Shown in pieces: positions 32,733-46,581 of a stretch of 64,000 nucleotides of DNA. The stretch's first letter is position 1; each line of letters begins with the position of its first letter. Below the pieces are notes generated by a model, which worked only from the letters and a program-made list of their open reading frames with translations, ran no database searches and was not told the DNA's origin. Source of the stretch: Crocinitomicaceae bacterium (GTDB lineage Bacteria > Bacteroidota > Bacteroidia > Flavobacteriales_D > Crocinitomicaceae); assembly GCA_022447665.1 (NCBI GenBank), contig JAKVAQ010000021.1:21654-85653 (forward strand), given 5' to 3'. Both the position numbers and the translations under genes were made by a program.

Positions 32733-33297
32733 TTTTTCTTTGGTTTACATGGGTTAAAAAATTCTTTATCATCGTTTCTCCTTCAGGAGTTAATATTGAT
32801 TCTGGGTGAAATTGGAATCCATAATGCGGTTTTCCATGAATCGCTAAAGCCATTACATGATCATCTGAAAAGGCCGTGAACGCTGCATTCGATGCCTGTT
32901 CATTTTTCACTTCCCATGAATGGTATCGTGCGCCTTGAAAGGTTTTAGACACATCCTCAAAAAGGAAAGATCCGTCATGCTCTATTTCAGTTTGAACACC
33001 GTGTAGCGCTTCTTTTGGCTGTACAAGTTCTAATCCGTTCACCTGGGCTATTGCCTGCATTCCTAGACAAATACCCAGCATTGGAAGGGAATCATTTTCA
33101 CGTACAATATCCAATAATCTTCCAGCATCTTTCGGTAAACTTGGTCCTGGTGATAGCACAAGCCCATCATACTTCTGCGCATCTATGGGCTTTATTTTGT
33201 CATTTCTTAATACGTTTACCTCAGCTCCTACCTTTACCAATAAAGCTTTTAGATTGTGGGTAAAGGAATCGTAATTGTCAATTAATAAGATGTTCAT
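32704..33297 (-). CDS. trpG: Anthranilate synthase component II (glutamine amidotransferase)
   Basis: Supplies ammonia from glutamine to TrpE. 197 residues, a single-domain class I amidotransferase. The nucleophile Cys77 sits in LGICLGMQA, with the histidine and glutamate in FQFHPESILT, and LSPGPSLP is the usual oxyanion-side loop. It could also serve folate synthesis (pabA) if no other copy exists, but its place in the operon says TrpG. Confidence 0.96.
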   Translation of the reverse strand: MNILLIDNYDSFTHNLKALLVKVGAEVNVLRNDKIKPIDAQKYDGLVLSPGPSLPKDAGRLLDIVRENDSLPMLGICLGMQAIAQVNGLELVQPKEALHGVQTEIEHDGSFLFEDVSKTFQGARYHSWEVKNEQASNAAFTAFSDDHVMALAIHGKPHYGFQFHPESILTPEGETMIKNFLTHVNQRKNERVTSKIA

Positions 33298-34679
33298 ATC
33301 ATTTCATTTGCAAGTGAAATAGCTGACTCAACAGCTCCCACTTTGTTATAGATTTCTTCTAATTCTGATTGTGGCACAGAATCTTTCACAATCCCTGCTC
33401 CAGCTTGGTAATTCAATGTTCCTTCGTGTGCAAAACATGAGCGTATTACAATGGCCGTATTCAAGTCTCCATTAGGAGAGAAATGACCTACGATGCCGCC
33501 ATAGTAGCCTCTGTTTTCATGCTCATACTCATCAATCAACTCCATAGCTTTGTATTTTGGAGCACCGCTCAGTGTTCCGGCAGGGAAGGTCATCGCTAAG
33601 GTTTCTAAGTTGAATCCTTCTTTTGCCTCTGCCTTGCCCGTAACTTTCGAAACCATGTGAATCACGTGCGAGAATTCTTGAATTTCCTTGAATTGGTTCA
33701 CTTCCACATCAGTACATGAAACATTTAAATCGTTTCTTGCCAGGTCTACCAACATGTTATGTTCTGCATTTTCCTTAGGATCATTTTTTAATTGCTCCAT
33801 TAGTGCAAGGTCCTCTTCCTTTACACCAGTTTTCTTCATGGTTCCGGCGATCGGGTGAATTTCAGCTACTCCATTTTTAATGACTAAATGAGCTTCTGGA
33901 GACGCCCCCAATAATATAGCCGATTGAAGATTTAAGTAGAACATGTATGGAGAAGGATTTATGCTTCTCAAGGCGCGGTAAACCTGAAACTCATCTCCTT
34001 CATAGTTTTGAGAAAAACTTCTAGAAAGCACCAATTGAAATACATCTCCGTAAGCGATGTTCTCCTTTGCTTTTCCAATTAATTCTAGGAAGGTATCCGG
34101 CTCAATATTCGTGTTGCGTTCTGAGTTTACCTGAAAGTGCGATTGAATAGAGAAGTTGATACGAAGATGATCTAAAATCATGTTGAAATTTGGTTCCTTC
34201 TCTTCAAAATCATTGATCAATACCTCAATCTCATTGGTGAAATTATCAAATATTAGAACGAATTCGTAAGCGTTGAGTAATACCTCAGCAGATTTGGTAA
34301 ATCTGTTACGTGTCTTGAAGTGAATGTCTTCCATTAACGGAATAGCATCGTATCCAATAACACCAAAGAGTCCGTTCAATGCAGCCTTTTCTTTGTTTAC
34401 AAACTCATAACCATTAAGCAGGTCTTGTACCTCAACAATTGAGTTCACTTCTTTTTTTTCGATGAAGCCTAAACGGTCGGTTAATTCAAGTTTTCTGTTT
34501 TGAACTTTTAGGGAAATAATAGGATTTCCACAGATGAAAGACTTGGAGTTTTTACGGTCATGATAGTCCGAACTTTCAAAGAGCGATACTGCCTCAAACT
34601 CATCGCGAAGCTTGTTGAAAGCCGCTATGGGCGTGAGATGATCGGCTATTATTTTTTTACTATGTGTATAAATTTTCAC
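33294..34679 (-). CDS. trpE: Anthranilate synthase component I
   Basis: Makes anthranilate from chorismate with ammonia from TrpG. 461 residues, normal length. The N-terminal LFESS at 33-37 corresponds to the LLESS element that binds feedback-inhibiting tryptophan. Chorismate-site motifs follow: NPSPYMFYL, LGASPEAHL, HPIAGTMKK, ARNDLNVSC, GTLSGAPKYKAMELID and YQAGAGIVKDS. First structural gene of the operon, behind the leader peptide at 34762-34824, and so controlled by attenuation by inference. Overlaps trpG by four bases. Confidence 0.97.
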   Translation of the reverse strand: MKIYTHSKKIIADHLTPIAAFNKLRDEFEAVSLFESSDYHDRKNSKSFICGNPIISLKVQNRKLELTDRLGFIEKKEVNSIVEVQDLLNGYEFVNKEKAALNGLFGVIGYDAIPLMEDIHFKTRNRFTKSAEVLLNAYEFVLIFDNFTNEIEVLINDFEEKEPNFNMILDHLRINFSIQSHFQVNSERNTNIEPDTFLELIGKAKENIAYGDVFQLVLSRSFSQNYEGDEFQVYRALRSINPSPYMFYLNLQSAILLGASPEAHLVIKNGVAEIHPIAGTMKKTGVKEEDLALMEQLKNDPKENAEHNMLVDLARNDLNVSCTDVEVNQFKEIQEFSHVIHMVSKVTGKAEAKEGFNLETLAMTFPAGTLSGAPKYKAMELIDEYEHENRGYYGGIVGHFSPNGDLNTAIVIRSCFAHEGTLNYQAGAGIVKDSVPQSELEEIYNKVGAVESAISLANEMI

Positions 34680-34703
34680 TGTGTTTTCTTAAGTTTTGGG
34701 AAT

Positions 34704-34737
34704 AAAAAAAGCGGCTTACCTGAGTAGATAAGCCGCT
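34704..34737 (-). terminator. Attenuator terminator of the trp operon
   Basis: On the minus strand AGCGGCTTA / TAAGCCGCT with a loop of ten bases is followed by seven T. It lies between the leader peptide and trpE. The 5' arm and loop contain TTATCTACTC (34731-34722), which can instead pair with GAGTAGCATAA at 34772-34762 to form the antiterminator, one bulge allowed. Confidence 0.9.
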
Positions 34738-34761
34738 GAAATATTTAGATATACAAAAGGT

Positions 34762-34824
34762 TTATGCTACTCGCCAAAGTCGAGTAAGCCACCAAAATTT
34801 TGTATTTAAATTCAAATATGTCAT
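34762..34824 (-). CDS. trpL: trp operon leader peptide (attenuation control), 20 residues
   Basis: An ATG at 34824 opens MTYLNLNTKFWWLTRLWRVA, with tryptophan at codons 11, 12 and 17 and phenylalanine at 10. The end of the coding part overlaps a hairpin TACTCG / CGAGTA (34786-34768) that corresponds to the 1:2 pause structure. A ribosome stalled at the double tryptophan would cover strand 1, free strand 2 to pair with strand 3 and prevent the terminator. With enough tryptophan it would reach the stop, block strand 2 and let the terminator form. The whole set, found by reading, is a textbook attenuator. Confidence 0.88.
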   Translation of the reverse strand: MTYLNLNTKFWWLTRLWRVA

Positions 34825-34842
34825 TGCGTTAGATCGCTGGCA

Positions 34843-34874
34843 CAAAGTTCTGCAATTTTTTTTCTTATTTCCAA
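34843..34874 (-). promoter_or_regulatory. Promoter of the trp operon: TTG and GAACTTTG
   Basis: On the minus strand TTG (34874-34872) is followed after 21 bases by GAACTTTG (34850-34843), one change from TAnnTTTG. Spacing is identical to that at the glutamine synthetase promoter. Start near 34838, about 14 bases before the leader ATG. Confidence 0.55.
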
Positions 34875-34965
34875 CAAAAAAATAAAATAAATTTCTATTT
34901 AAATGATTTACAGTATTTTAAAATTTATTTTGAATTTATTTCTCAATTATTGAACAAAATTACCA

Positions 34966-34973
34966 TAGCTTTG
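34966..34973 (+). promoter_or_regulatory. -7 promoter element (TAGCTTTG) of the aromatic-leader operon
   Basis: Exact TAnnTTTG. Transcription should begin about 4-6 bases later, almost at the leader ATG at 34978, so the leader mRNA may be leaderless or nearly so. No -33 TTG at 21 bases is present. Confidence 0.55.
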
Positions 34974-34977
34974 TGTT

Positions 34978-35022
34978 ATGTATTTAACGGCAAGAAACTT
35001 TTGGAACTGGTTCAGGACTTAA
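34978..35022 (+). CDS. Aromatic amino acid leader peptide upstream of DAHP synthase-chorismate mutase, 14 residues
   Basis: ATG at 34978 opens MYLTARNFWNWFRT, with the cluster F-W-N-W-F at codons 8-12 and a tyrosine at codon 2. The aromatic density in so short a frame, its position directly behind a promoter and 31 bases ahead of a Rho-independent hairpin mark it as an attenuation leader. The codons would sense charged tRNA for both phenylalanine and tryptophan, suiting control of the common first enzyme of the aromatic pathway. Confidence 0.85.
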   Translation: MYLTARNFWNWFRT

Positions 35023-35053
35023 TGGTCTCGGGTCTTTCTATATAATAATATTT

Positions 35054-35080
35054 AGTCTCCGAGTCGGGGACTTTTTTTTT
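35054..35080 (+). terminator. Attenuator terminator ahead of DAHP synthase-chorismate mutase
   Basis: AGTCTCCG / CGGGGACT (one G-U pair) with a loop of three bases and eight or nine T. It sits 16 bases before the ATG at 35096. The alternative CTCGGG (35027-35032) pairing with TCCGAG (35058-35063) would prevent it. Confidence 0.85.
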
Positions 35081-35095
35081 GCCAAAAAGATTGTG

Positions 35096-36157
35096 ATGAA
35101 CATAGATGATTTTAAACGGCCATTGATTATTTCAGGCCCATGTAGCGCAGAAAGTGAGCAGCAGGTTTATGAAACTTGCAAGCGATTGAAAGATGGAGGA
35201 AGAGTGAATGTATTGCGCGCTGGGATTTGGAAACCTCGTACGCGTCCGAACTCTTTTGAAGGGGTTGGGGCTGTAGGATTGCCATGGTTAATTAAAGCAG
35301 GAAAAGAGTTGGATTTGCCTGTAATTACGGAAGTGGCCAATGCACTTCACGTGGAAGAAGCCCTAAAAGCTGGGTTCAAAAATCTATGGATTGGAGCACG
35401 ATCTACAGTAAACCCATTTACGGTGCAAGAGATTGCCGATAGTTTACGTGGTGTTGAAGGATTAACCGTGATGATTAAGAATCCGATTAACCCAGATTTG
35501 GCCTTATGGATTGGTGCTTTTGAACGCTTTAAAATGGTAGGTCAAAATGATTTACATGCCATACACCGAGGGTTCTCATTACACCGAAAAACTAAGTATA
35601 GAAATGAGCCAATGTGGGAGATTCCTTTGGCCTTTAAAAACGAAATTCCTGAGGCCAAAATGATTTGTGACCCAAGTCATATTGCGGGAAATAGAGAGTT
35701 ATTAAAACCAGTGAGTCAAAAGGCTTTAGACCTTGTGTATGATGGATTAATGATTGAGTCTCACATTACACCTGATGAAGCTTGGAGTGATGCCGCTCAG
35801 CAAATAACACCAGAGACCTTAACGGAACTGGTAAATGGACTTACAATTCGTTCGGTTGAATCGTCAAATGAAGAGATTGAAGAAAATTTAGATTCCATGC
35901 GTTCTGAAGTGAACCAAGTAGATGCGGAGATTATTCAGTTAATTGCCACTCGAATGGGAATAATTGAGCGTATTGGTGACTTTAAAAAGGATAATTCCAT
36001 TACAATTCTTCAACCAGAAAGATGGGCTGAAATTCAGCGATTACAAACAGAAAAAGGTAATGAATTAGGACTTTCAGATTCCTTTATACTTCAATACCTT
36101 GAGGTAATACATCAAGAATCTATTCGCAGACAAACAAAGATTATGAATGAGGGTTAA
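35096..36157 (+). CDS. aroG: Bifunctional DAHP synthase / chorismate mutase
   Basis: From the ATG at 35096 (a GTG three bases earlier is possible) the product has 353 residues. Residues 1-255 are a DAHP synthase barrel with ISGPCSAES, LRAGIWKPRTRPNSFEG, IKNPINPD and CDPSHIAGN. Residues 265-353 are a chorismate mutase of the AroQ type (EENLDSMRSEVNQVDAEIIQLIATRMGIIERIGDFKK) and may also act as allosteric sensor. It is the second DAHP synthase in the window, next to the trp operon and behind its own attenuator, so it is likely the amino-acid-regulated isozyme. It lacks the N-terminal domain of the copy at 6907. Confidence 0.93.
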   Translation: MNIDDFKRPLIISGPCSAESEQQVYETCKRLKDGGRVNVLRAGIWKPRTRPNSFEGVGAVGLPWLIKAGKELDLPVITEVANALHVEEALKAGFKNLWIGARSTVNPFTVQEIADSLRGVEGLTVMIKNPINPDLALWIGAFERFKMVGQNDLHAIHRGFSLHRKTKYRNEPMWEIPLAFKNEIPEAKMICDPSHIAGNRELLKPVSQKALDLVYDGLMIESHITPDEAWSDAAQQITPETLTELVNGLTIRSVESSNEEIEENLDSMRSEVNQVDAEIIQLIATRMGIIERIGDFKKDNSITILQPERWAEIQRLQTEKGNELGLSDSFILQYLEVIHQESIRRQTKIMNEG

Positions 36158-36245: not shown

Positions 36246-36983
36246 CTAATAGTAATAGACTTCGCCTTCTTTAGTATAAATCGTGTCAACTTGATAGAAA
36301 TCCATATAATTTCTATTAATTGAATCGAAGGCCAATTCAGAATCCTCATAACCTATGTAATAAAATACATTGGCTAGAGACTCCTTAGTAAAAGGTAGAC
36401 CATAATAAATAAAATCGGCGTTATCGTACAATAACATCAAACAAAGTACAGGGGAGGTATCCTCTGTAAAATAAATGGTCGTTAAAAGTTCTCCGAATGA
36501 CAATTCACATTCTAGTAATGGGTAAAATTCCTTAATGTGCGGCATCATTAAATCATAATAAGCCTCATCTCCTCCAACAAAACCAGTCAATACGAGTTTA
36601 AGGTAATCAGTGTATTCAATAGTTTTTGCATTGTCAGAGTATAAAATTGGAGATTGGCAATACTTATATCGGGTACCTCGAGAATAATCTAGGTCAACCC
36701 AAATAGATCCGGTATAGTTTCCGTATTCTGCAGAAAACAAAAGACAGATGTAATCTTTTAACATGACAGAAAACTGCAACCCATCCGCAACATTTGAAAT
36801 ATTTCCTACATGAACTTCAAACCCTCGGCTTACATGATTATAGGTCCAATTAAGATTGGCTTCTTCATCCACTTCAGCTAAAGATTCATGAAAGCCAATT
36901 TCGATCTTAGCTGCATTATCTTGGCCAAAGGATGACAAACAAATCAAACAAAAAAATAATATGCTTATTTTTCGGAAATACAC
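36246..36983 (-). CDS. Secreted protein of unknown function
   Basis: About 245 residues with a signal peptide (YFRKISILFFCLICLSSFGQ). The start is uncertain: GTG at 36983 or TTG at 36986. The mature protein is rich in tyrosine and acidic residues; short phrases like GFVGGDEAYYDLMMPHIKEFYPLLECEL give no family. It is the first of two small unknown genes between the aromatic operons and the polysaccharide cluster. Confidence 0.5.
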   Translation of the reverse strand: MYFRKISILFFCLICLSSFGQDNAAKIEIGFHESLAEVDEEANLNWTYNHVSRGFEVHVGNISNVADGLQFSVMLKDYICLLFSAEYGNYTGSIWVDLDYSRGTRYKYCQSPILYSDNAKTIEYTDYLKLVLTGFVGGDEAYYDLMMPHIKEFYPLLECELSFGELLTTIYFTEDTSPVLCLMLLYDNADFIYYGLPFTKESLANVFYYIGYEDSELAFDSINRNYMDFYQVDTIYTKEGEVYYY

Positions 36984-37084
36984 CAATCAATATTGTAGTC
37001 AAAAATAACTAAGATTATCGATATCATAAAAAGAGGATTTAGCCAAAGGGACACAAACCGAGCAGAGCTATTTGATCATATATA

Positions 37085-37423
37085 TTAATTAAACCTTTCA
37101 TCAACTACAGTAGAGACAGAATAATCTGATTTAGAATACTTTATTCTTAAGTCTTCTGTTCCAATTAGAGCTGAATCTACTTCGTTTTTGAATATCCAAG
37201 ATAATCCACAATACTCAAGGTCTTCAATATAATAACAGTAATGCACTGCCCAAGAACCCCTTTCAGTGGAATATCTGATAACTTTCGCATTAGTTTCGAG
37301 AGAATCCAGAAGTAAATTTTCTTTGTAATTCTCATATAATTTTGCTGAAAATAGAACTACACAGAATGTTATAATCAAAACCGGCCAAGAAAATAATATC
37401 TTTTTAACTCTATTGTTACTCAT
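37085..37423 (-). CDS. Small membrane-anchored protein of unknown function
   Basis: 112 residues with one N-terminal membrane segment (SWPVLIITFCVVLFSAKLY, residues 13-31) and an outer domain. The pattern NAKVIRYSTERGSWAVHYCYYIEDLEYCG and LRIKYSKSDYSVS resembles the DUF3592-type of small membrane proteins, but I would not claim the family. It lies 38 bases downstream of the GT2 gene on the same strand. Confidence 0.5.
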   Translation of the reverse strand: MSNNRVKKILFSWPVLIITFCVVLFSAKLYENYKENLLLDSLETNAKVIRYSTERGSWAVHYCYYIEDLEYCGLSWIFKNEVDSALIGTEDLRIKYSKSDYSVSTVVDERFN

Positions 37424-37460: not shown

Positions 37461-38774
37461 CTATAACCCCATTCGCTTCGCGTGTTGCGAGGTTTTCTTT
37501 GGGTTCCAAGGGTCGTTATAAGAGAGTTTAAAGAAGAGTTCTTGTACGTAGGCAACAGAACGCACAATTCTCAGGTAATACCCAAAATAAATTACCATAC
37601 ATGGAATATAAATAAGGAAGTAAGACATTGGTGCGTGACTCCGTTTACGATACACCGAATAAAGCACAAACTTAACAAAATTCGTAATGGTATAGAGCAA
37701 GAAGTTGGTGATTAAAATATTGAGAATGAGGGAACGGTAATTAATGATCATATCACTCAAATACACATACCACTTGACGTTCAGTACAAGGTTATACGTA
37801 ATGTTCTCTACAAAAGAGATGAAGTTCGAGAACTTAAAGGATTGATTTGGCAAGAGGACATCGTGATGCTTCCGAATCCTAAATCGAATTAAGGATTTAT
37901 CCCAGCGCAGTCGCTGTTTTGCTAATTTTTTAAAGGTACCCGGAGCATTTGTCAAGCAAATAGCATCTTGCTCAAACTTAATCTTGTACCCAATTTTTCG
38001 AATCTTAACTGTAATGTCACCATCCAGTCCAGGACCTATATCCCAACCTTTTACCTTCTCTAATACATCAGCTCTAAAAGCACCAAAAGCACCAGAAATA
38101 ATACGGTAAACACCTAACTTCGAGGTAACAACACGACCAATACTAATGGTATCAAAATACTCAATGGCCTGCAAAGTAGTGGCCAAGCTCTGCTTGTAAT
38201 TACGCACCATTACGTTACCACCAACTCCACCTACTTGTTTGTCGAGGTAAAATGGAATAATGATTTTTTCTATCGCGTCTCTATCATAGGAGCAATCCGC
38301 ATCTAAGTGAACAATAAACTTCCCTTTACAGAATCTTAATCCCGTATTGGCGGCAGAGGCTTTACCTCCTCGAATCTCATTTCGGACAAATTGATCTATC
38401 CACCCGGCTTTCTCTAAATCTCGACCAATCGTAGGGGTGTCATCATCAGAACCATCATCAATTACAATGACTTCTATATTTTGGTAGGTTTGCTCTTTTA
38501 ATGAGCGAATGAGCTTATAAATGTGCTTCCCTTCGTTCTTACCAGGAATAATTATGGAGACCAATGGATTCTCAAAAAGGAATTCTTGTCTTGCCTTTTC
38601 GTACTTGTCTCTATTTAAGTATTTACTGAGCCTCCAAATGTTTAGAACAATCCATTCAATTACAAAATAGCGAATGAATTCGAAGAAAATATAGAACCAG
38701 AAAAGCCTAACAAAGTGACCAACGTTTAAACTTTGCAAGAACCTTAGGTAATTGTCTAATATTTCTTCAATCAC
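37461..38774 (-). CDS. Processive family 2 glycosyltransferase (polysaccharide synthase-like)
   Basis: 437 residues, inner-membrane enzyme of the cellulose/hyaluronan/PNAG synthase type. Catalytic-domain motifs: DDGSDDD at 106-112, DAD at 158-160, the acceptor region SGAFGAFR at 227-234, GLDGD at 249-253 in place of the usual TED, and QRLRW at 287-291. One membrane segment precedes it (about 20-48) and three or four follow (about 325-345, 348-372 and 385-405). The substrate sugar cannot be told. It is the last gene of a four-gene operon (TolC/barrel fusion, HlyD, TackOD1, GT2), which suggests the chain it makes is exported through the adaptor and outer-membrane channel. Confidence 0.85.
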   Translation of the reverse strand: MIEEILDNYLRFLQSLNVGHFVRLFWFYIFFEFIRYFVIEWIVLNIWRLSKYLNRDKYEKARQEFLFENPLVSIIIPGKNEGKHIYKLIRSLKEQTYQNIEVIVIDDGSDDDTPTIGRDLEKAGWIDQFVRNEIRGGKASAANTGLRFCKGKFIVHLDADCSYDRDAIEKIIIPFYLDKQVGGVGGNVMVRNYKQSLATTLQAIEYFDTISIGRVVTSKLGVYRIISGAFGAFRADVLEKVKGWDIGPGLDGDITVKIRKIGYKIKFEQDAICLTNAPGTFKKLAKQRLRWDKSLIRFRIRKHHDVLLPNQSFKFSNFISFVENITYNLVLNVKWYVYLSDMIINYRSLILNILITNFLLYTITNFVKFVLYSVYRKRSHAPMSYFLIYIPCMVIYFGYYLRIVRSVAYVQELFFKLSYNDPWNPKKTSQHAKRMGL

Positions 38775-40199
38775 CTACTCTAGCTCCTTTGTTAATTGGT
38801 GAATATGCATCTCTGGCGACATTCCGTAATCAAGTGGAATTACATGCGTATGGAATTGAACCTCCATGCTCTTGAGGGTTGTTTCCATTAATCGCTTGAG
38901 AATATCAATAATCTCGGATAAGATCTTTTTCGCAATTCTCGTAGGGATTTCATTCATGGAGAGTACAATGGTCGATGAATTCTGGAATGAAATAATATCT
39001 GATGAACGAATGTTTGATCGAATTACTTTGACAATCTCAATCAATAAATCCTTTTGTACATCAGACCCTAATTGAGAATAAACCTGCGAAGGGTTATCAA
39101 TTTTAATGGCACATACGTTTGATGATCCTTCCGTTTGACGTAGACGTTCGATCTCGTACTTTAACATTGTCTTGAATGTCTCGTACTTCACAGAACCAAT
39201 AATTTCCTCGATATCCTTTGCAGTAGTTACGAATCCATTAATGGCAGCCATTTCCCCTTTCTTAGTAAGGGTATATTTCTTAATCGTTCTTTCTGCCAAC
39301 TGCTCAGCGCGCTGATCTTGCCCACATGACATACATTTTGCATTCACATTATAGTCTTGGAACTTATGTCCGCAATTATTACAAGTATGTAACACCGAAG
39401 GTTTATCGTAATCTACTCCAATATGGCGAAGACGTTTATTACACTTCGGACAATCTAATTCATCATCAATTTCGTTAGTAAAATCGTCAATAGGGCCTAC
39501 ATATCCGCATGGGAAATGATGAATAATATCTTGCGTTTTAGAGTTTGAACTCGAACACTTAGGACAAACCTCTCGATAACTCAAACGTCCACTATTACAA
39601 TTTCCACAGAGGTATACCTTATCGTGAAATTCCGATTCGAATATTCCTTCTTTCTCTGCAATCTCTAAAATGTCTAATATTGAATGTTCATCGTGACGAG
39701 AGAAGTTTACCGATAATATTGGGTAAGAATAATTAATATCTGCGTACACGTAAGGTATAGGTTCTAGAACTCGGTCCTCACTGGTATACATGAAGCAAAT
39801 GACTTTTTCAATCATTTGGGCTTCAAATGAAATAGACTCGGTGAATTTTAACTCACTCGACCTCGTACGGATTCTTTCCGTTTCATCCTTTAAGAATGGA
39901 AGCTGATCTAAACTATACAAAGTACCATCTGTTAGCTTCTGAATAAAAGGGTCTGTGATCGTTGCACCACGGAGAATGTAAACCGGCTTCAAGTATATAT
40001 CGTGCTTTTTGTGGGCACGAATTCTACGTACAATTTGTCGTACAAATGCCTCATCACGTCCGTCAATAATCACTGCATCATGAAACTCAACATCCTCCAC
40101 CACTAGCCCATCAAACCTATCAATGATAAGGTATGAGAAGCCATCACTCTTAACAACTGAGTCTGATATTTGCTCTATTTCAGGTTTTTTCTCCTCCAT
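38775..40199 (-). CDS. TackOD1 zinc-ribbon protein with a degenerate GGDEF-like domain
   Basis: 474 residues, soluble. Residues 20-120 form a receiver-like region (YLIIDRFDGLVVEDVEFHDAVIID). Residues 130-295 match the TackOD1 layout: HDEHSILDILEIAEKEGIFES followed by zinc-ribbon cysteine pairs at 198/201, 212/215, 231, 250/253, 273/276 and 289/292. Residues 335-474 look like a GGDEF fold (FKTMLKYEIERLRQT, VCAIKIDN, SDIISFQNSSTIVLSM) in which the active-site GGDEF loop is replaced by NSST. So it should not make cyclic di-GMP and may bind a ligand or a partner. Its stop is adjacent to the GT2 start and it overlaps the HlyD gene by one base, so it is probably the regulator of the synthase. Confidence 0.72.
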   Translation of the reverse strand: MEEKKPEIEQISDSVVKSDGFSYLIIDRFDGLVVEDVEFHDAVIIDGRDEAFVRQIVRRIRAHKKHDIYLKPVYILRGATITDPFIQKLTDGTLYSLDQLPFLKDETERIRTRSSELKFTESISFEAQMIEKVICFMYTSEDRVLEPIPYVYADINYSYPILSVNFSRHDEHSILDILEIAEKEGIFESEFHDKVYLCGNCNSGRLSYREVCPKCSSSNSKTQDIIHHFPCGYVGPIDDFTNEIDDELDCPKCNKRLRHIGVDYDKPSVLHTCNNCGHKFQDYNVNAKCMSCGQDQRAEQLAERTIKKYTLTKKGEMAAINGFVTTAKDIEEIIGSVKYETFKTMLKYEIERLRQTEGSSNVCAIKIDNPSQVYSQLGSDVQKDLLIEIVKVIRSNIRSSDIISFQNSSTIVLSMNEIPTRIAKKILSEIIDILKRLMETTLKSMEVQFHTHVIPLDYGMSPEMHIHQLTKELE

Positions 40200-41341
40200 T
40201 AAAATGTTCGTTTACTAATTGTAACACTCAATTTGTAATATTTCTTCCAAATCTCAAGGTCTTCTGTTGAAATTGGAATAATGTCTGCGGCCAAAGTTCT
40301 TGTTGTTGGCTCAAATTTCTTTTGGAATTCTTCTGGTAAAATGTACGTTGCAGAATAGAATCGATTAATCATTCCTACAGACTCAGTACCGTCTGCGAAC
40401 TCTAAGTTTACTAAATCTCCCTCACTTAAATATTTAAGGTCTGTTTGATCAAAGAATCCTTTAATATGCACATGGCTTGCCTGGTGGATGGAAAGAATTG
40501 TCTCTGTTTTCAGTGCTACTTCGTATGCTTGTTTATTTAAACGCGTTACAGTACCGTCAATAGGGCAAGTAAACACCTTGAAGTCTTGAATTTGCTCAAT
40601 TCCAGCCAACATATGCTGAGGCTCTAAACCGAAAGTATTATTACCTCCGCCGCCACCGGTAGAATTTTGTTCAATAGTAACATCTAAGTCTTGCTCATCA
40701 ACAATCAATCCTTCTAAATATTTTATCTGGCGATACATCACCGAGTTCTCCGACTCATTAATGTTAATCGCAGATTCTAGTTTCGAAATCTGATATTCTA
40801 AATTTTCTAAATTCGTGTGCGAAACCGCGTCAAGAATCACCTCATTCCTTACACGCTCAAGATCCTCTTCATACAAGGCTAAAAGCTTTTTATCATCCTT
40901 AATTCTTGCATTGTTTAGGGCAACATTCTTGCGTAAATTATACAGTTCCCGTTCAATCCATGAGTCTGGTTTCGACTTACCTCCAATGGTTACAGAATTA
41001 CTTCCTCCGCCTCCGCCATTGCCGAATAAATCATCGTCTAAGAAATAGGTAAAAAGGGTATCTCCAATTTTAACATCCTGCCCCTCTTCAATGGCGAATT
41101 CTAAGATTCGTATGTCATCAGTATGACGAATGTCTACATTTTCAAATAGAACCTGCCCGTTCCCTTCAATGTAGAAATAATGGTTGAGCATAAAGCGCCC
41201 AATAAAAAAGGCAAGAACCACAAGAAGAGCGATATAGATAAAACGATCCCAGTTGAAAGGAGACTTTTGTTTCTGAATCTCCTTTTCATCCATGTAGCGC
41301 AAATAGCTATCGCCTTTTCTTTTAAAGCTTATACTCTTCAT
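40199..41341 (-). CDS. HlyD-like membrane fusion (adaptor) protein
   Basis: 380 residues: a short cytoplasmic part, one membrane segment at about 33-55, a biotinyl-lipoyl-like half (ILEFAIEEGQDVKIGDTLF), a coiled-coil hairpin near 125-215, the second lipoyl half (FKVFTCPIDGTVTRLNKQAYEVALKTETILSI) and a beta-barrel. Two glycine runs (GGGGGS near 110 and GGGGGNN near 230) flank the hairpin and are unusual in length. Adaptors of this type join an inner-membrane enzyme or pump to a TolC-like channel; here the only inner-membrane partner visible is the GT2 synthase. No ABC or RND transporter gene lies nearby. Confidence 0.82.
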   Translation of the reverse strand: MKSISFKRKGDSYLRYMDEKEIQKQKSPFNWDRFIYIALLVVLAFFIGRFMLNHYFYIEGNGQVLFENVDIRHTDDIRILEFAIEEGQDVKIGDTLFTYFLDDDLFGNGGGGGSNSVTIGGKSKPDSWIERELYNLRKNVALNNARIKDDKKLLALYEEDLERVRNEVILDAVSHTNLENLEYQISKLESAININESENSVMYRQIKYLEGLIVDEQDLDVTIEQNSTGGGGGNNTFGLEPQHMLAGIEQIQDFKVFTCPIDGTVTRLNKQAYEVALKTETILSIHQASHVHIKGFFDQTDLKYLSEGDLVNLEFADGTESVGMINRFYSATYILPEEFQKKFEPTTRTLAADIIPISTEDLEIWKKYYKLSVTISKRTF

Positions 41342-41343
41342 TC

Positions 41344-43380
41344 TTATTCAACACTTTTTCTATCAAACTCAATTAATCGGCGCAAGTCATGGTATGCAAA
41401 TTTGCGGAGCGCAGTTTTATCATACATGGCTTTCATCTTGTTCTCCATCCCAATTCTATTCTCAAAATCCTCTGTTCTAAACGCTAAAACCATCTTCGGG
41501 GTTGAATTATCGATAAAGGGAGTGATTTTTCTCGTTAAAAACTCAGTATCAACGTTTTCATAACACATAAAGTAAATGGCGTTAACTTTTGGAAAGAGCT
41601 CTTCAATAACATCTATTCCATAATGGGTAGGAATTGATATTGATAGTTCTAGATCATTCGCCTCACAGAATTTATTCACATTTCCCACATAAGCGATATA
41701 CTCATTTAAATACTCCTGCTTACGTGATTTATAATCATCGAAGGTATGTGGTTCAATATCTAAATGGAATCCTGTAGGCTCAATATCTGGATACGCATCT
41801 AAAATTCCCTGCATATACCCATGCATGTCTTTTTCAAAGAATAGCTTATTATTCCCCAACATAAAATGAATCTCTGCATTGGCCTGAGCAAACTGCATAA
41901 ATGTTTTCTTTTCTGGAATAGTATCTATCTTTTGAACCGCCATTATAATTTTATCAAACTCATTGTAAATCACATATTCCGCCAAGAATTCAGGGGTATA
42001 TTTCTCAAATGTTTTACTCCAAACATATACTGAACGCTCCTTATTATCGATGTATTCATTAATTTCTTCTGCCGGCTGAACCGAGATAATATCACGAATA
42101 TCAGTGTTCGGAATCTTGGAGTGAACCTTTAAAGCCTTGAGGTAAAGATTTTGGAGTAAATCAACCAATTCGATATCTATGCTCAACAAGTCGTCATAAA
42201 TCTCTAAACCAAGTAAAGGATTAATGTTATTATCGCCCAAACTAATTTTCACTTTCTCAATGCGCATGCGTTCCATGAAGATTTTACGCTTTTGATAAAA
42301 TGAAACAAACTGCTTAAGCTTATATCGGAATTCATACCCTGTATTCAAAATATCTTCATGTAAACTAGAGCGCTCTTGAATCATTCGTTCATTATCATAT
42401 AAATACTTGGTGCTTTCTATTTCATTCTTAAGCTTTGTATTGAATGGAATTGGGATTGAAAAATTCAACCCGGCTGAAACGAATGTTCTGTTGTTATTAT
42501 TTACTAGATCGTAATAATTGTAGCGAGCATAAGCTCTCAAGTTGATTTGGTGATACCAGCTATAATAGTCTTGGTAATCTCTTTTGGCCAACATACTATC
42601 TGTTTGTGCGCCAATCAATCCAAAAATATAATCGTAGTTTAAGTCGATTAAAGGAAGGTTCTTAGGATCGAAGGCTAAAGTATCATCCTCAATACCCAAA
42701 TACTCGTTGTAGCTACTGTAAATACTTAGCATACTCTCTACCTCTGCTAATCTCGAGTCAATTTTAATAAGATCCTCCTTCGTTAATTTCTTGAGTAGGA
42801 CCAATTCTTCAATCACATTATATTGCTCTTGTAAACTTGTTTTTCTAGCTTCAAGCAATTCAATCTTTACTTTATTGAAGGTGAAGATGGTTTGATCAAA
42901 ACGCAAGAGATAGTGAAAACTCTCTTCGGTTAACTGGCCTTTTAATTGATCACGAATAATTTGATCTTCTAAAATTCTAGCCTGTGCTTTGTTTTCGAAG
43001 AAACCATTATCTAGAATACGCCATTCCAGACCAGCGTTAAACCTTCTGTTAAAGACTAGGTTATCGTCAATGGTGCCAATTTCTGGGTTAAAATTCTCGA
43101 GGTATCCACCAGTAATATAAAGGCCATAATCATTCTCAGTGTACTCTAGACGTTTTTCTAAATATTCCGCCCTACTTGCAATTGCCTTTGTTCGCTTTAG
43201 CTTTGAAATGCTGTGGATTACGTTGGTAGTGGTGTCTTGAAATTCTACTGGAACATAGTGGGTGTTATTGAATAAATCTTGAAGTTGACCGACCCTTGAA
43301 TAAAAGGTAGTATCCTTTTGCGCATAAACAATGTTTACGCTGCAAAGCATAATGAGGGATATTCGTTTTAGTAAGTTCAA
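41344..43380 (-). CDS. TolC-like outer-membrane channel fused to a glycosidase-like TIM barrel
   Basis: 678 residues, longer than the 430-490 of a plain TolC family protein. A signal peptide ends near residue 20. Residues 60-430 give the TolC pattern of long helices with two beta segments (LYITGGYL, VSAGLNFSIPIP). Residues 448-678 look like a separate barrel: AVQKIDTIPEKKTFMQFAQANAE, then GFHLDIEPH at 537-545, whose Asp541 and Glu543 recall the DxE acid motif of GH18-type enzymes, SISIPTHYG, VNAIYFMCYEN and PKMVLAFRTEDF. No known protein with this fusion comes to mind. It is the first gene of the polysaccharide operon; the barrel would lie in the periplasm or at the exit and could trim or bind the exported chain. 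Confidence 0.75.
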   Translation of the reverse strand: MNLLKRISLIMLCSVNIVYAQKDTTFYSRVGQLQDLFNNTHYVPVEFQDTTTNVIHSISKLKRTKAIASRAEYLEKRLEYTENDYGLYITGGYLENFNPEIGTIDDNLVFNRRFNAGLEWRILDNGFFENKAQARILEDQIIRDQLKGQLTEESFHYLLRFDQTIFTFNKVKIELLEARKTSLQEQYNVIEELVLLKKLTKEDLIKIDSRLAEVESMLSIYSSYNEYLGIEDDTLAFDPKNLPLIDLNYDYIFGLIGAQTDSMLAKRDYQDYYSWYHQINLRAYARYNYYDLVNNNNRTFVSAGLNFSIPIPFNTKLKNEIESTKYLYDNERMIQERSSLHEDILNTGYEFRYKLKQFVSFYQKRKIFMERMRIEKVKISLGDNNINPLLGLEIYDDLLSIDIELVDLLQNLYLKALKVHSKIPNTDIRDIISVQPAEEINEYIDNKERSVYVWSKTFEKYTPEFLAEYVIYNEFDKIIMAVQKIDTIPEKKTFMQFAQANAEIHFMLGNNKLFFEKDMHGYMQGILDAYPDIEPTGFHLDIEPHTFDDYKSRKQEYLNEYIAYVGNVNKFCEANDLELSISIPTHYGIDVIEELFPKVNAIYFMCYENVDTEFLTRKITPFIDNSTPKMVLAFRTEDFENRIGMENKMKAMYDKTALRKFAYHDLRRLIEFDRKSVE

Positions 43381-43428: not shown

Positions 43429-44400
43429 TTAGGATACAATTATTTTATTCCCGCAATCGAAATGTTGCTTAGGACAGGCCTTAAACCCGTGCAGTCCGCA
43501 AGGGCGGCAAGAAAGGGCTTCTTTTACCTCCACTATTTCGCTATTCTCTGATAAAGGACCAAAACCAAATGCTGGAACAGTAGAGCAAAAGAAAGCTGTA
43601 ACGGGTGTATTAGTTGCTGACCCCATGTGCAAAGGAGCAGAATCATTAGCATAAATTCGCTTGGCTTTTGAAATAAGCCTGGCACTCTGCAACAATGATA
43701 AATTAGAGGCGATAAGAATATCACTCCTCTCCGATTTTTCCGCTATTCTATTTAATAGTTCTTTGTCGCCCGGCGCGCCTACCAAAACGATTTGATCTTC
43801 TTTTTTAAGTTTTAGGAGTTCTACCCATTTCTCTTCCGGCAATTTCTTTGTTTCCCAGACTGATGCCGGAGCAAGAACTAAATGATTATTTAAAGATTCT
43901 AATTCTGCCGGCAGTTGAACGGCATCTGCATGTAGTTTAGGATTTAATAGCTTAGGACTAATCTTTTGAATTGCTGGAGATAAATTTAAAAGACCGAAGT
44001 TTCGTTCAATTTCATGTTTTCCATTGCCGATTTCATGCCGTAGACTTTTCGTGTAAAAAGAAGAGAAGAAATTTCCTTTAAAACCCAACTTCACTTTTGC
44101 TTTAGAACGATACGTCATAAACCCTGCATTTGAAAAACGCTGGAGATTAACGACTAGGTCATACTCTTGTTCCCTTATTTCTTTAACTGTTTTAAACAGG
44201 TTTTTGTACTTGTCTTCCTTTTTGTTCCAAACTATTAACCGGTCGATAAAAGGATGACCTTCAAGTAGATTTTCGTTTCCTTTTCTTACCACCATATCCA
44301 GCTTGGCCTCTGGTAGAGAAGCATGGATTGTTTCGAGGAGAGAAGTCGCTAAAATTACATCTCCAATAAAAGCAGTTTGTATGAGTAGTATTCTATTCAT
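43429..44400 (-). CDS. Family 9 glycosyltransferase (heptosyltransferase-like)
   Basis: From the ATG at 44400 the product has 323 residues. Longer starts would lie within the thioesterase gene and add a non-family leader. Motifs: N-terminal RILLIQTAFIGDVILAT, YDLVVNLQRFSNAGF, LAPASVWETKKLP and ANDSAPLHMGSATNTPV with the donor-binding region. These enzymes transfer heptose or a similar sugar to the LPS core. The end has CRPCGLHGFKACP, cysteine-rich as in the WaaC/F group of some families. Overlaps the thioesterase stop by eight bases. Confidence 0.85.
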   Translation of the reverse strand: MNRILLIQTAFIGDVILATSLLETIHASLPEAKLDMVVRKGNENLLEGHPFIDRLIVWNKKEDKYKNLFKTVKEIREQEYDLVVNLQRFSNAGFMTYRSKAKVKLGFKGNFFSSFYTKSLRHEIGNGKHEIERNFGLLNLSPAIQKISPKLLNPKLHADAVQLPAELESLNNHLVLAPASVWETKKLPEEKWVELLKLKKEDQIVLVGAPGDKELLNRIAEKSERSDILIASNLSLLQSARLISKAKRIYANDSAPLHMGSATNTPVTAFFCSTVPAFGFGPLSENSEIVEVKEALSCRPCGLHGFKACPKQHFDCGNKIIVS

Positions 44401-44794
44401 ACGGAGGCAGATGCGCGTACGATTGACGAACACTTTCGTCAATTGGAATTGCATCACCATTATGATCAATTCTTACGAAAATGAAAATAGTTGAGCACAC
44501 CATTTTTTCTTCGCCGGTGTAGAAGTTACTTGCTCGAGCCTCCACATACATGGTCATAGATGATTTACCAACGCTTTTAACCTCTCCATAGATGTTTACT
44601 TGATCACCTACTTTTACGGGACGCTTAAAGATCATTTCATCAATCTTAACGGTAACCATATTTGGATTTTTACACACTGAACATGCAAAGGTCGCCGCGG
44701 CTTCGTCTAGCCATGCCAACATAATACCTCCGAACAAATTTCCGTGAACACCAATATCCTTGGTCATACAGAGTTTAAGTGCTAATTTTTCCAT
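44393..44794 (-). CDS. Acyl-CoA thioesterase, hotdog fold (YciA/BACH type)
   Basis: 133 residues. The hotdog signature is GVHGNLFGGIMLAWLDEAAATFA (Asp in the catalytic helix), then MVTVKIDEMIFKRPVKVGDQVNIYGEV. Family members hydrolyse acyl-CoA of various lengths in the cytoplasm. It directly precedes, and overlaps, the GT9 gene and is separated from the GT4 gene by no bases, so all three form one transcript. Confidence 0.87.
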   Translation of the reverse strand: MEKLALKLCMTKDIGVHGNLFGGIMLAWLDEAAATFACSVCKNPNMVTVKIDEMIFKRPVKVGDQVNIYGEVKSVGKSSMTMYVEARASNFYTGEEKMVCSTIFIFVRIDHNGDAIPIDESVRQSYAHLPPYE

Positions 44795-45847
44795 TTAAGC
44801 TTTTATGTTTAATATTTTTTCAGTCCAAATACGCGGTGTGTTTTCCAGACCAATTTCATGACTATTTCCAGCCATTTCAATCAATTCTTGGTCAGATAGG
44901 CGTTCAAGTTGCTCAAAGACACGCTTGATCTCCTCCTCACTTCCTGCCGTAAAAACAAAGCCATTTTCTGTTCTACAAAAAGCAGATGCTGCACCAACCT
45001 CTTCAGAGATTAACAAGGGATAACCCGCCACTGCAAATTCTTGTACGGACACGCCCCATGGCTCAAACTTACTCGGCAATATATACACCCCCGTATCTCT
45101 TATTATATCCGACATCTCAGAGGGTTGCATAAAACCGAAATGTCTAATTTTTTCGTGCTCTACCCTATTCTCCCATTCATCTCCTGTACCCACACACCAT
45201 AACTCCCAATCGGAAGGATTATTTTTTTGCCATTCAATAAAAGCATTCCACATTTCGAAAATACCTTTATGCTCCACATACCTTGCTAGGTAGAGAATCC
45301 GCTTTGGAAAGATTTTTCTTTTTTCTTCTTTGGTACGTGTATAAGCCTCAGTAAATAGATCGGTATCTGCGCAATAAAATCCTCGTTCAATTCTAGCCGT
45401 TGGAAAGCCCAATTTCACAGCAAATTTGAACTGTGGATCCCCTGGAACCCAAGCATGTGTGAACGTACGTTTTAAATAAACTGGAGAAATAGCCGAGGCA
45501 ATCTTCTGCTTTAAACTTCCCACCCAGTGATTATCGATACACACTACCGTAGGGATTGACCGCTTAAATTTCTTCACAATCTTTACATAATCCTTATCCA
45601 TCCAGCCAGAACAAATAAGTTTCTCAGGGCCAAAAGTCACTAGGTGATTGTAAATTTCATCTACCGTCTTCCCTTTTCTATCGATCACTTCAACATTCTC
45701 AGGAAATTGAAATTCGAAGGGCGCTTCACTATTCACAGGCCAGCGATATAGCAAAACATCTGCACTTATAGCCAGTTCCTTTAAACAAGCTACTGTATAG
45801 CCCGCTATTTCGGTATATAAAAATGCTATTTTTGCTTTACCAGACAT
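44795..45847 (-). CDS. Family 4 glycosyltransferase
   Basis: 350 residues, GT-B fold. The C-terminal half shows YLARYVEHKGI, VGTGDEW, and the donor-site phrase SKFEPWGVSVQEFAVAGYPLLIS, where Glu and the following residues bind the nucleotide sugar. No membrane segment. It probably adds a sugar to LPS or another surface glycan, with the exact substrate unknown. It starts 23 bases from the divergent rsmE gene and is followed at once by the thioesterase. Confidence 0.85.
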   Translation of the reverse strand: MSGKAKIAFLYTEIAGYTVACLKELAISADVLLYRWPVNSEAPFEFQFPENVEVIDRKGKTVDEIYNHLVTFGPEKLICSGWMDKDYVKIVKKFKRSIPTVVCIDNHWVGSLKQKIASAISPVYLKRTFTHAWVPGDPQFKFAVKLGFPTARIERGFYCADTDLFTEAYTRTKEEKRKIFPKRILYLARYVEHKGIFEMWNAFIEWQKNNPSDWELWCVGTGDEWENRVEHEKIRHFGFMQPSEMSDIIRDTGVYILPSKFEPWGVSVQEFAVAGYPLLISEEVGAASAFCRTENGFVFTAGSEEEIKRVFEQLERLSDQELIEMAGNSHEIGLENTPRIWTEKILNIKA

Positions 45848-45870
45848 TGCAAGACAAATTTAGCAATTGC

Positions 45871-46581
45871 ATGATGATGAAGATAAAGCACACTTTTTTT
45901 TCTGAAGATACTTCTGTTAATGAACTACCAAGCATTGAAGCCAATCATGCTTTAAGGGTTCTGCGCATGCAAGTTGACGACCTGTTTTATCTTATTGACG
46001 GAAAAGGAACCAACCTCACTTGCAAGATTTCTAGAATAGAAGGCAAGCGGTTAATCTATGATATCCTTAGAGAAGAAAAAATCGAATACAATGGTCCGAA
46101 AGTGGCCATAGGTATAGCATTACCAAAAAGTAAGGACCGTATTAACGTGTTTCTTGAAAAGACTGCTGAAATTGGAATACATCAAATAATTCCTTTGGTG
46201 AGTAAGAATTCGGAACGTCAAAACTTTAAGCGTGATAAGATGCAGCATACTTTAATTAGTGCATTAAAACAATCAGGTAATTACTATTTACCAGAAGTTT
46301 TGGAGCCACAAAACTTTGAAGTATTTGTTAAGAACGTTGATGAAGAAAAAGAAAAGTTCATTGCGCACTGTGAGGAAGATGGCGACAAACAGGAGTTGAA
46401 ATCTGTTTATAAGTCGGGTAAAAATGCACTAATTCTAATTGGACCGGAGGGCGATTTTACATCCGAAGAGCTTATCTTAGCAAAAGAAAATGGTTTTATC
46501 CCCGTTAGTTTGGGTAATAGTCGTTTAAGAACAGAAACAGCAGGAATTGTAGCATGTCATACTTTTCACGTTTTATACTAA
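45871..46581 (+). CDS. rsmE: 16S rRNA (uracil(1498)-N(3))-methyltransferase
   Basis: Methylates U1498 of 16S rRNA. 236 residues from the first of three consecutive ATG codons at 45871; ATG at 45874 or 45877 is equally possible. The C-terminal SPOUT knot is plain: LILIGPEGDFTSEEL, SLGNSRLRTETAGI, with an N-terminal PUA-like domain (HALRVLRMQVDDLFYLIDGKG). It overlaps the DUF4159 gene by 28 bases, so the two are coupled. Confidence 0.93.
   Translation: MMMKIKHTFFSEDTSVNELPSIEANHALRVLRMQVDDLFYLIDGKGTNLTCKISRIEGKRLIYDILREEKIEYNGPKVAIGIALPKSKDRINVFLEKTAEIGIHQIIPLVSKNSERQNFKRDKMQHTLISALKQSGNYYLPEVLEPQNFEVFVKNVDEEKEKFIAHCEEDGDKQELKSVYKSGKNALILIGPEGDFTSEELILAKENGFIPVSLGNSRLRTETAGIVACHTFHVLY

Follow-up and report, generated by a model that had tools for sequence, protein, structure and literature searches.

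A probable Mxd-type polysaccharide export set with its own TolC-like channel in Bacteroidota

We analysed a 64,000-nucleotide stretch of DNA (the window) from contig JAKVAQ010000021.1 of a Crocinitomicaceae bacterium, a member of the phylum Bacteroidota. The genome has at least 150 matches to the Por_Secre_tail profile, which is a mark of Bacteroidota. On the minus strand of the window, four open reading frames (ORFs) lie head to tail at 37461-43380, at the positions that an earlier sequence-only reading had given them. In transcription order they encode a TolC-like channel with a fused glycosidase-like barrel, a HlyD-like adaptor, a regulator with a TackOD1 domain and a degenerate GGDEF domain, and a family 2 glycosyltransferase (GT2). 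On balance, we favor the view that these genes encode a machine of the Mxd kind (known from Shewanella oneidensis) that is dedicated to synthase-dependent polysaccharide export. The genes and motifs that carry this view are as follows.

37461-38774, minus strand: PgaC/IcaA-like GT2 polysaccharide synthase, 437 residues (Pfam, NCBIfam, alignment A3)
38775-40199, minus strand: cytoplasmic regulator, 474 residues, with a receiver-like N-terminal part, a TackOD1 zinc ribbon (127-311) and a degenerate GGDEF domain (341-450) (Pfam, alignment A2)
38997-39008, minus strand: RSSD, an RxxD motif at regulator codons 398-401, five residues before the GGDEF site (motif table, codon read-back)
40199-41341, minus strand: HlyD-like periplasmic adaptor (membrane fusion protein), 380 residues (Pfam HlyD_3, AlphaFold2 model, fold matches)
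41344-43380, minus strand: TolC-like outer-membrane channel (about 50-430) followed by a PgaB/GH18-like (beta/alpha) barrel (about 445-675) (ORF of 678 residues, weak Pfam OEP match, AlphaFold2, Foldseek, VIA-align)
41746-41772, minus strand: GFHLDIEPH, a GH18-like Asp/Glu motif at channel codons 537-545 (column count in alignment A1)

The domains of the four products, their order, and their co-occurrence were observed directly. Pfam and NCBIfam scans of the four ORFs, together with AlphaFold2 models and Foldseek and VIA-align fold searches, bear out the sequence-only reading, which had named a GT2, a TackOD1/degenerate GGDEF regulator, a HlyD-like adaptor, and a TolC-like channel with a barrel as linked genes. 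The spacings between channel, adaptor, regulator, and GT2 are 2, -1, and 0 bases, close to the one to three bases or one-base overlaps that it had described. Likewise, its remark that there is no transporter gene agrees with our scans, as no ABC, RND, or MFS pump domain was detected in the four genes or in eight neighboring ORFs (35093-36157, 36246-36986, 37085-37423, 43429-44469, 44795-45847, 45823-46581, 44393-44794, and 33294-34679, the last by NCBIfam scan only). A promoter scan returned 38 sites compared with 35.2 in shuffled sequence and a terminator scan 7 compared with 7.0, and the limits of the operon are thus drawn from spacing and synteny only.

A synteny search across the phylum revealed channel, adaptor, regulator, and GT2 in one order in 23 of 23 loci from 22 Bacteroidota genomes, so the co-occurrence extends beyond this strain. 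These loci comprise the window, ten from other relatives, and 12 from 11 other genomes of a phylum sample; TackOD1 exceeded its cut-off in 11 of the 59 genomes searched as relatives and in 12 of the 392 in the phylum sample, the window's genome being included in both counts. Matches below the cut-off (one among the relatives, six in the phylum sample) were left out, and the stretch with the one among the relatives (L030) has none of nine window proteins. Spacings were tabulated for 21 of the 23 loci, leaving out L022, in which a contig end cuts the GT2, and L058; in L027, the regulator and the GT2 are 1025 bases apart. At E values up to 1e-15, a channel profile marks exactly the same 12 of 392 genomes as TackOD1 and none besides, a count that is weakened as support by the origin of the profile in these very loci and by a scoring restricted to the two top first-look candidates in each genome. 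The telling part of this co-occurrence is the absence of the channel elsewhere, within that two-candidate limit. The set is patchily spread and keeps its own channel.

The channel gene is the first of the set, and the N terminus of its product looks like a signal peptide by eye. Its Pfam OEP match is weak (3.9e-4, 20.7 bits, just below the cut-off of 22, while the six-frame match reaches 24.2 bits and passes it), and the call is backed by the AlphaFold2 model and the fold searches. The model, built from 18 rows, has a mean predicted local distance difference test score (pLDDT) of 83.9 and a predicted template modeling score (pTM) of 0.57, and it shows two strand pairs and two pairs of long helices in the TolC pattern, followed by a barrel at about 446-670. 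Foldseek matches the channel to TolC at 1.9e-12, and VIA-align places the channel part on TolC (7ng9) with Z 18.6 and a root mean square deviation (rmsd) of 5.2 over 360 residues. For the barrel, the first VIA-align match is the glycosidase domain of PgaB (4p7o; Z 19.2, rmsd 3.4, 227 residues), level with the chitinase-like 1jnd (Z 19.1) and followed by GH18 enzymes at Z 17-18.5. Searches of PDB sequences with the channel and the adaptor returned nothing useful.

The barrel accompanies the channel in 18 of the 23 loci, and these 18 form alignment A1, from which the channels without a full barrel (L057, L059, L060, L061, and L065) were left out. Gly537, His539, Asp541, Glu543, Pro544, Met605, Tyr607, Arg635, and Asp638 are invariant in every row. 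The catalytic motif of GH18 is DxxDxDxE; compared with it, the barrel keeps the Glu and one Asp, while another Asp is replaced by His (H539-x-D541-x-E543, 18/18). The Pfam GH18 model matches only two of the 18. Given the topology of TolC, the barrel would sit on the periplasmic side.

The adaptor of the window matches Pfam HlyD_3 at 6.8e-5 (24.0 bits, cut-off 22.2), as do 27 of the 28 rows of alignment A4, which holds 22 phylum and six plasmid sequences, with L058 and L036 left out (A5 is A4 minus the plasmid rows). Its AlphaFold2 model (mean pLDDT 76.4, pTM 0.43) contains one transmembrane helix, a split lipoyl domain, an alpha-hairpin (two helices, 44 and 43 residues long), and a beta-barrel. 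By fold, the adaptor matches EmrA and MacA best, and HlyD is also listed; the whole-chain rmsd is large (17-40 in the first rows) because the placement of the domains differs. In one locus (L058:5293-6834), the adaptor carries a C-terminal SPOR domain, a peptidoglycan-binding domain.

The GT2 is matched by Pfam Glycos_transf_2 at 1.4e-29, and its best NCBIfam model is PgaC_IcaA (6.3e-46, 157 bits, below the equivalog cut-off of 422). PgaC_IcaA also matches all 28 rows of alignment A3 (22 phylum and six plasmid GT2s; L022 and the cut L036 left out), in which Asp107, the DxD at 158-160 (Asp158 and Asp160), Asp251, Asp253, and QRxRW at 287-291 are invariant. With a match below the cut-off and invariant catalytic residues, the window protein is, as judged from its sequence, a processive-type GT2 near PgaC and not a proven synthase of poly-N-acetylglucosamine (PNAG). 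The base-Asp motif of the window GT2 reads LDGD (codons 250-253, 38016-38027). Position 250 is Leu or Met and position 252 is Gly in 22 of 22 phylum rows; the six proteobacterial rows have Glu and Leu at these positions.

The regulator matches Pfam TackOD1 at 4.3e-54 (183 bits, cut-off 32) and GGDEF at 9.4e-7. Alignment A2 contains 29 regulators, from 22 of the 23 phylum loci (L068 left out) and from seven plasmid loci; TackOD1 matches all 29, and eleven cysteines are invariant throughout. TackOD1 is described with the same number of cysteines in passages of PMC5847659, where it is placed in archaeal response regulators and some bacteria and its role is called obscure. In the window regulator, NSSTI takes the place of the GGDEF motif. 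A c-di-GMP (cyclic di-GMP) I-site follows the rule of an RxxD motif five residues ahead of that site, and RxxD stands at that distance in 16 of the 29 regulators, including three gammaproteobacterial ones and leaving out L035 for its wrong spacing. Six loci (L058, L062-L064, L066, and L067) have a regulator that starts with a receiver-like domain, with Asp at the phospho-site in all but L066, which has Asn. In these six, a small gene of its own (106-119 residues) lies before the regulator gene; in the clade of the window, the small part is fused to the regulator. Pfam Response_reg matches seven of the 29. In Roseibium (L034:475-14387), the annotation calls the TackOD1 protein a response regulator, and genes for CHASE-domain and Hpt-domain proteins are close by, a neighborhood that suggests phosphorelay input to the TackOD1 module.

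The genome of the window is 99.98% complete, and its single GGDEF match is the regulator of the operon; no EAL domain was found in it by profile search. None of the 22 carriers has a GGDEF match outside the operon, the six matches at E values up to 0.001 all being operon regulators, and profile searches for EAL and PilZ found neither in any of the 22. The same GGDEF profile matches 190 of the 392 phylum genomes, two of which (G000 and G259) are represented by the operon's own regulators. Non-operon GGDEF matches thus occur in 188 of 380 noncarriers and in 0 of 12 carriers (Fisher p = 4.6e-4, not corrected for phylogeny), which shows that the profile works in this phylum. It seems that no GGDEF enzyme is needed where the set occurs here. 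Because no other GGDEF was found in the 22 carriers, c-di-GMP from a GGDEF enzyme does not appear to feed the regulator in these genomes, and the lack of extra-operon GGDEF, EAL, and PilZ matches suggests that the Mxd-like machine probably runs without c-di-GMP here. A CD-NTase (SMODS profile) was considered as a nucleotide source for the window's regulator and is not supported, as the window's genome has no match.

The core of the set is also found outside the phylum. TackOD1, GT2, and adaptor genes follow each other in that order on six plasmids, from Plesiomonas, Photobacterium (unannotated, its genes taken from ORFs), Phyllobacterium, Roseibium, Methylocystis, and a Rhodobacteraceae. Three of the six adaptors are annotated as HlyD family, the rest being hypothetical or unannotated; in an Aeromonas record (L036), the record end cuts the GT2 and what follows. 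TackOD1 matches 23 plasmid records. Fifteen of them match the Plesiomonas GT2 at 1e-30 as well, and the other eight comprise six haloarchaeal records and two short weak matches; this GT2 is not matched in any plasmid record without TackOD1. Gene neighborhoods were examined in seven of these records. The channel protein has no match in PLSDB at E 0.01, so the plasmids do not tell whether the proteobacterial systems have this channel.

This core resembles the mxd cluster of S. oneidensis, a putative exopolysaccharide cluster required for biofilm, as presented in passages of PMC3691769. There, MxdA is a protein of unknown function that indirectly controls c-di-GMP, MxdB is a GT2, MxdC has homology to efflux pumps, and MxdD has no known homology; mxdA and mxdB mutants do not aggregate. 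In passages of PMC7666153 and PMC11395469, MxdA is reported to bind c-di-GMP, to be in contact with CheY3, and probably to switch on the Mxd machinery. One review, in the portion relevant here, credits the c-di-GMP effect in Shewanella to MxdB and not to MxdA (PMC8683041); we follow the research papers. Since parts and order match those described for mxdABC, the TackOD1-GT2-adaptor module likely belongs to the Mxd kind. When the annealing part of an MR-1 mxd promoter primer (PMC3691769) was scanned in genome contigs, its one match lay in a Saprospiraceae metagenome-assembled genome (L038) without any of the nine window proteins (E up to 1), and it was rejected as a chance match.

Together, these observations would fit the following mechanism. 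The GT2 may polymerize a chain, probably one containing N-acetylhexosamine, and push it across the inner membrane, while the HlyD-like adaptor would sit over the GT2, in the place of a pump, and dock the TolC-like channel. In transit, the chain may be clipped or edited by the barrel, which would lie at the periplasmic end of the channel, as PNAG is by PgaB. From the cytoplasm, the receiver-like/TackOD1/GGDEF-like protein could gate the synthase, in these organisms in response to phospho-signaling, contact with a protein, or a ligand other than the c-di-GMP that a GGDEF enzyme makes. While the polymer, the conduit, and the signal are thus proposals, the last leads to a broader and tentative idea, to which we give somewhat less than an even chance: an Mxd-type machine that is switched by c-di-GMP elsewhere was carried into, or kept in, bacteria without c-di-GMP enzymes, has its own channel with a glycosidase built into it, and answers to a different signal. 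If so, the RxxD site in the dead GGDEF domain would bind another nucleotide or act purely as a protein switch.

Several points weigh against the export machine as we read it. We infer the substrate, the contact between GT2 and adaptor, and secretion itself, and membership in the Mxd kind was judged from published Shewanella descriptions and not from MxdA-D sequences. As far as the plasmids show, the core module comes without the channel: an OEP gene is listed close to the proteobacterial module only in L035, though the gene tables are incomplete and there is none for L032, and L035 has a further MFS/HlyD/OEP set on the other strand, which makes the nearby TolC gene weak evidence for a link. 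Within the phylum, the channel lacks a full barrel in five loci, as judged by length and alignment and not by fold. In four of these barrel-incomplete loci (L057, L059, L060, and L061), a gene for a UDP-glucose/GDP-mannose dehydrogenase separates adaptor and regulator (called by Pfam in L057 and L059, and by 82-95% identity to L059 in L060 and L061), and the polymer therefore need not be the same in all loci. Regarding the signal, RxxD is kept in 11 of 11 regulators of the window's clade, which is odd if no nucleotide binds. Moreover, only two other genomes of the window's class are in the GGDEF match list, so the class lacks GGDEF broadly and lineage confounds the test. Many of the 188 non-operon matches are single and moderate and were counted as profile matches, not as catalytic enzymes, and GGDEF, EAL, and PilZ profiles can miss divergent enzymes. 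Finally, a CD-NTase is present in two of the 22 carriers as a possible other source of cyclic nucleotides.

The same evidence bears on three other explanations. The GT2 might make a glycan separately while adaptor and channel serve a pump encoded elsewhere, the genes being linked by shared regulation only. HlyD/TolC pairs normally serve ABC, MFS, or RND pumps, the best folds of the adaptor are EmrA and MacA, and the window's genome encodes three further OEP proteins. However, the 12 of 392 genomes with TackOD1 are also those picked out by the channel profile, the eight scanned neighbors include no pump gene, and GT2 and adaptor are adjacent in six proteobacterial copies, which makes this explanation unlikely. 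The degenerate GGDEF domain might, on the other hand, be functional as a c-di-GMP receptor and be supplied by a cyclase that escaped the profiles, as the RxxD counts (11/11 in the clade, 16/29 overall) and the reported binding of c-di-GMP by Shewanella MxdA, in the papers cited above, would allow. We regard this as the least likely of the three, given a window genome with one GGDEF match, this regulator, and no EAL match, and given 22 carriers without another GGDEF, EAL, or PilZ match, in contrast to the 188 of 380 other genomes that the same GGDEF profile finds.

A narrower form of the export machine, compatible with it, would be a PNAG-type Pga variant in which TolC and a PgaB-like barrel replace PgaA and PgaB. 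The closeness of the GT2 to PgaC_IcaA (6.3e-46) and the PgaB glycosidase domain as first fold match of the barrel (Z 19.2) point in this direction, whereas the 157 bits of the GT2 fall far from the equivalog cut-off of 422, 1jnd is level with PgaB and GH18 enzymes are close behind, Pfam finds no polysaccharide deacetylase domain in the four proteins, and four loci carry the dehydrogenase. We consider this variant rather unlikely, if somewhat less so than the separate pump. Here, one operon holds the genes for synthase, adaptor, and channel, which makes a pump-free conduit testable with three linked genes. In addition, the operon suggests a function for the TackOD1 domain, and it is a naturally occurring example of a c-di-GMP-type regulator in organisms in which c-di-GMP enzymes were not found (22 genomes).

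Genes for a GT9 heptosyltransferase-like protein, a 4HBT thioesterase, and a GT4 lie immediately upstream of the channel gene and share its strand (43429-45847); a GT9 gene adjoins the four-gene set in eight of ten relatives, and a longer operon including GT9 is therefore possible. Downstream (33294-36157) are anthranilate-synthase-like and DAHP-synthase/chorismate-mutase genes, ordinary genes of aromatic amino acid synthesis, and the neighbors at 36246-36986 and 37085-37423 have no domain match in the Pfam scan. One genome (G259, contig C116) has the system twice, on opposite strands and some 15 kb apart (L057 and L058); the copies represent two subtypes, one without a full barrel and with the sugar-nucleotide dehydrogenase, the other with a barrel and a receiver-type regulator. 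Related secreted proteins of 398-656 residues that look lipoprotein-like by eye are encoded within the operon or directly behind it in seven loci (L058:787-2019, L062:5553-6824, L063:11538-12818, L066:5936-7132, L059:11274-13238, L060:11873-13825, and L061:4671-6641), some of the links between them being weak (1e-6). The one in L059 has a DUF4114 domain, and these proteins are perhaps a matrix anchor.

Comparing the set with known systems, tripartite ABC, RND, and MFS pumps differ in their inner-membrane pump gene, which is not found among the four genes and eight neighbors. PgaA is a TPR porin, and PgaB clips or edits PNAG. With regard to the Pga/Ica systems, the GT2 of the set is nearest PgaC_IcaA, and the PgaB glycosidase domain is the first fold match of its barrel, level with 1jnd, whereas the set has a TolC-like channel, a HlyD-like adaptor, and no deacetylase domain in its four proteins. 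Alg8/Alg44 and BgsA/BgsB likewise pair a GT2 with a HlyD-domain partner, BgsB being the partner of the mixed-linkage glucan synthase BgsA in the sections of PMC9495663 on this pair. However, Alg44 includes a PilZ part, the C terminus of BgsA binds c-di-GMP, and the alginate porin is AlgE, no TolC being named in the source passages.

A closer precedent is the cyanobacterial XcsAB-TolC system, in which XcsA, the HlyD-like XcsB, and TolC have been proposed as a tripartite cellulose exporter and XcsC is an endoglucanase (Maeda et al. 2018, as reviewed in parts of PMC12430437). As reviewed there, that system combines a GT2 synthase, a HlyD-like adaptor, a TolC channel, and a glycosidase without a pump, which is also the make-up of the set with its TolC-like channel and glycosidase-like barrel. 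The Xcs synthase has a PilZ or PCR domain, while the window's genome has no PilZ match. There, no single operon encodes synthase, adaptor, and TolC (the genes for synthase, HlyD-like protein, and endoglucanase can share one), whereas the set has its channel in the operon, a glycosidase-like barrel fused to that channel, and a different regulator. The sequence-only reading had supposed that the synthase passes its chain into a HlyD-TolC conduit; this idea is plausible but not new in view of XcsAB-TolC and BgsB. Its further suggestion of an undescribed set does not hold for the core, which proteobacterial plasmids also carry and which agrees with what is described for Shewanella mxdABC, nor for the GT2-HlyD-TolC conduit, already published for XcsAB-TolC.

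The Mxd system comes closest in its parts, encoding regulator, GT2, and efflux-type adaptor together. MxdA has a degenerate GGDEF motif. The A-B-C order of Mxd is kept in the six proteobacterial plasmid copies, while the 23 phylum loci run channel, adaptor, regulator, GT2. The Mxd cell signals by c-di-GMP, whereas none of the 22 carrier genomes has another GGDEF, EAL, or PilZ match, and Mxd differs from the set of the window in the latter's dedicated TolC-like channel with a glycosidase-like barrel. What is new here is that, in genomes in which c-di-GMP enzymes were not found, the operon brings its own channel, usually fused to a PgaB/GH18-like barrel.

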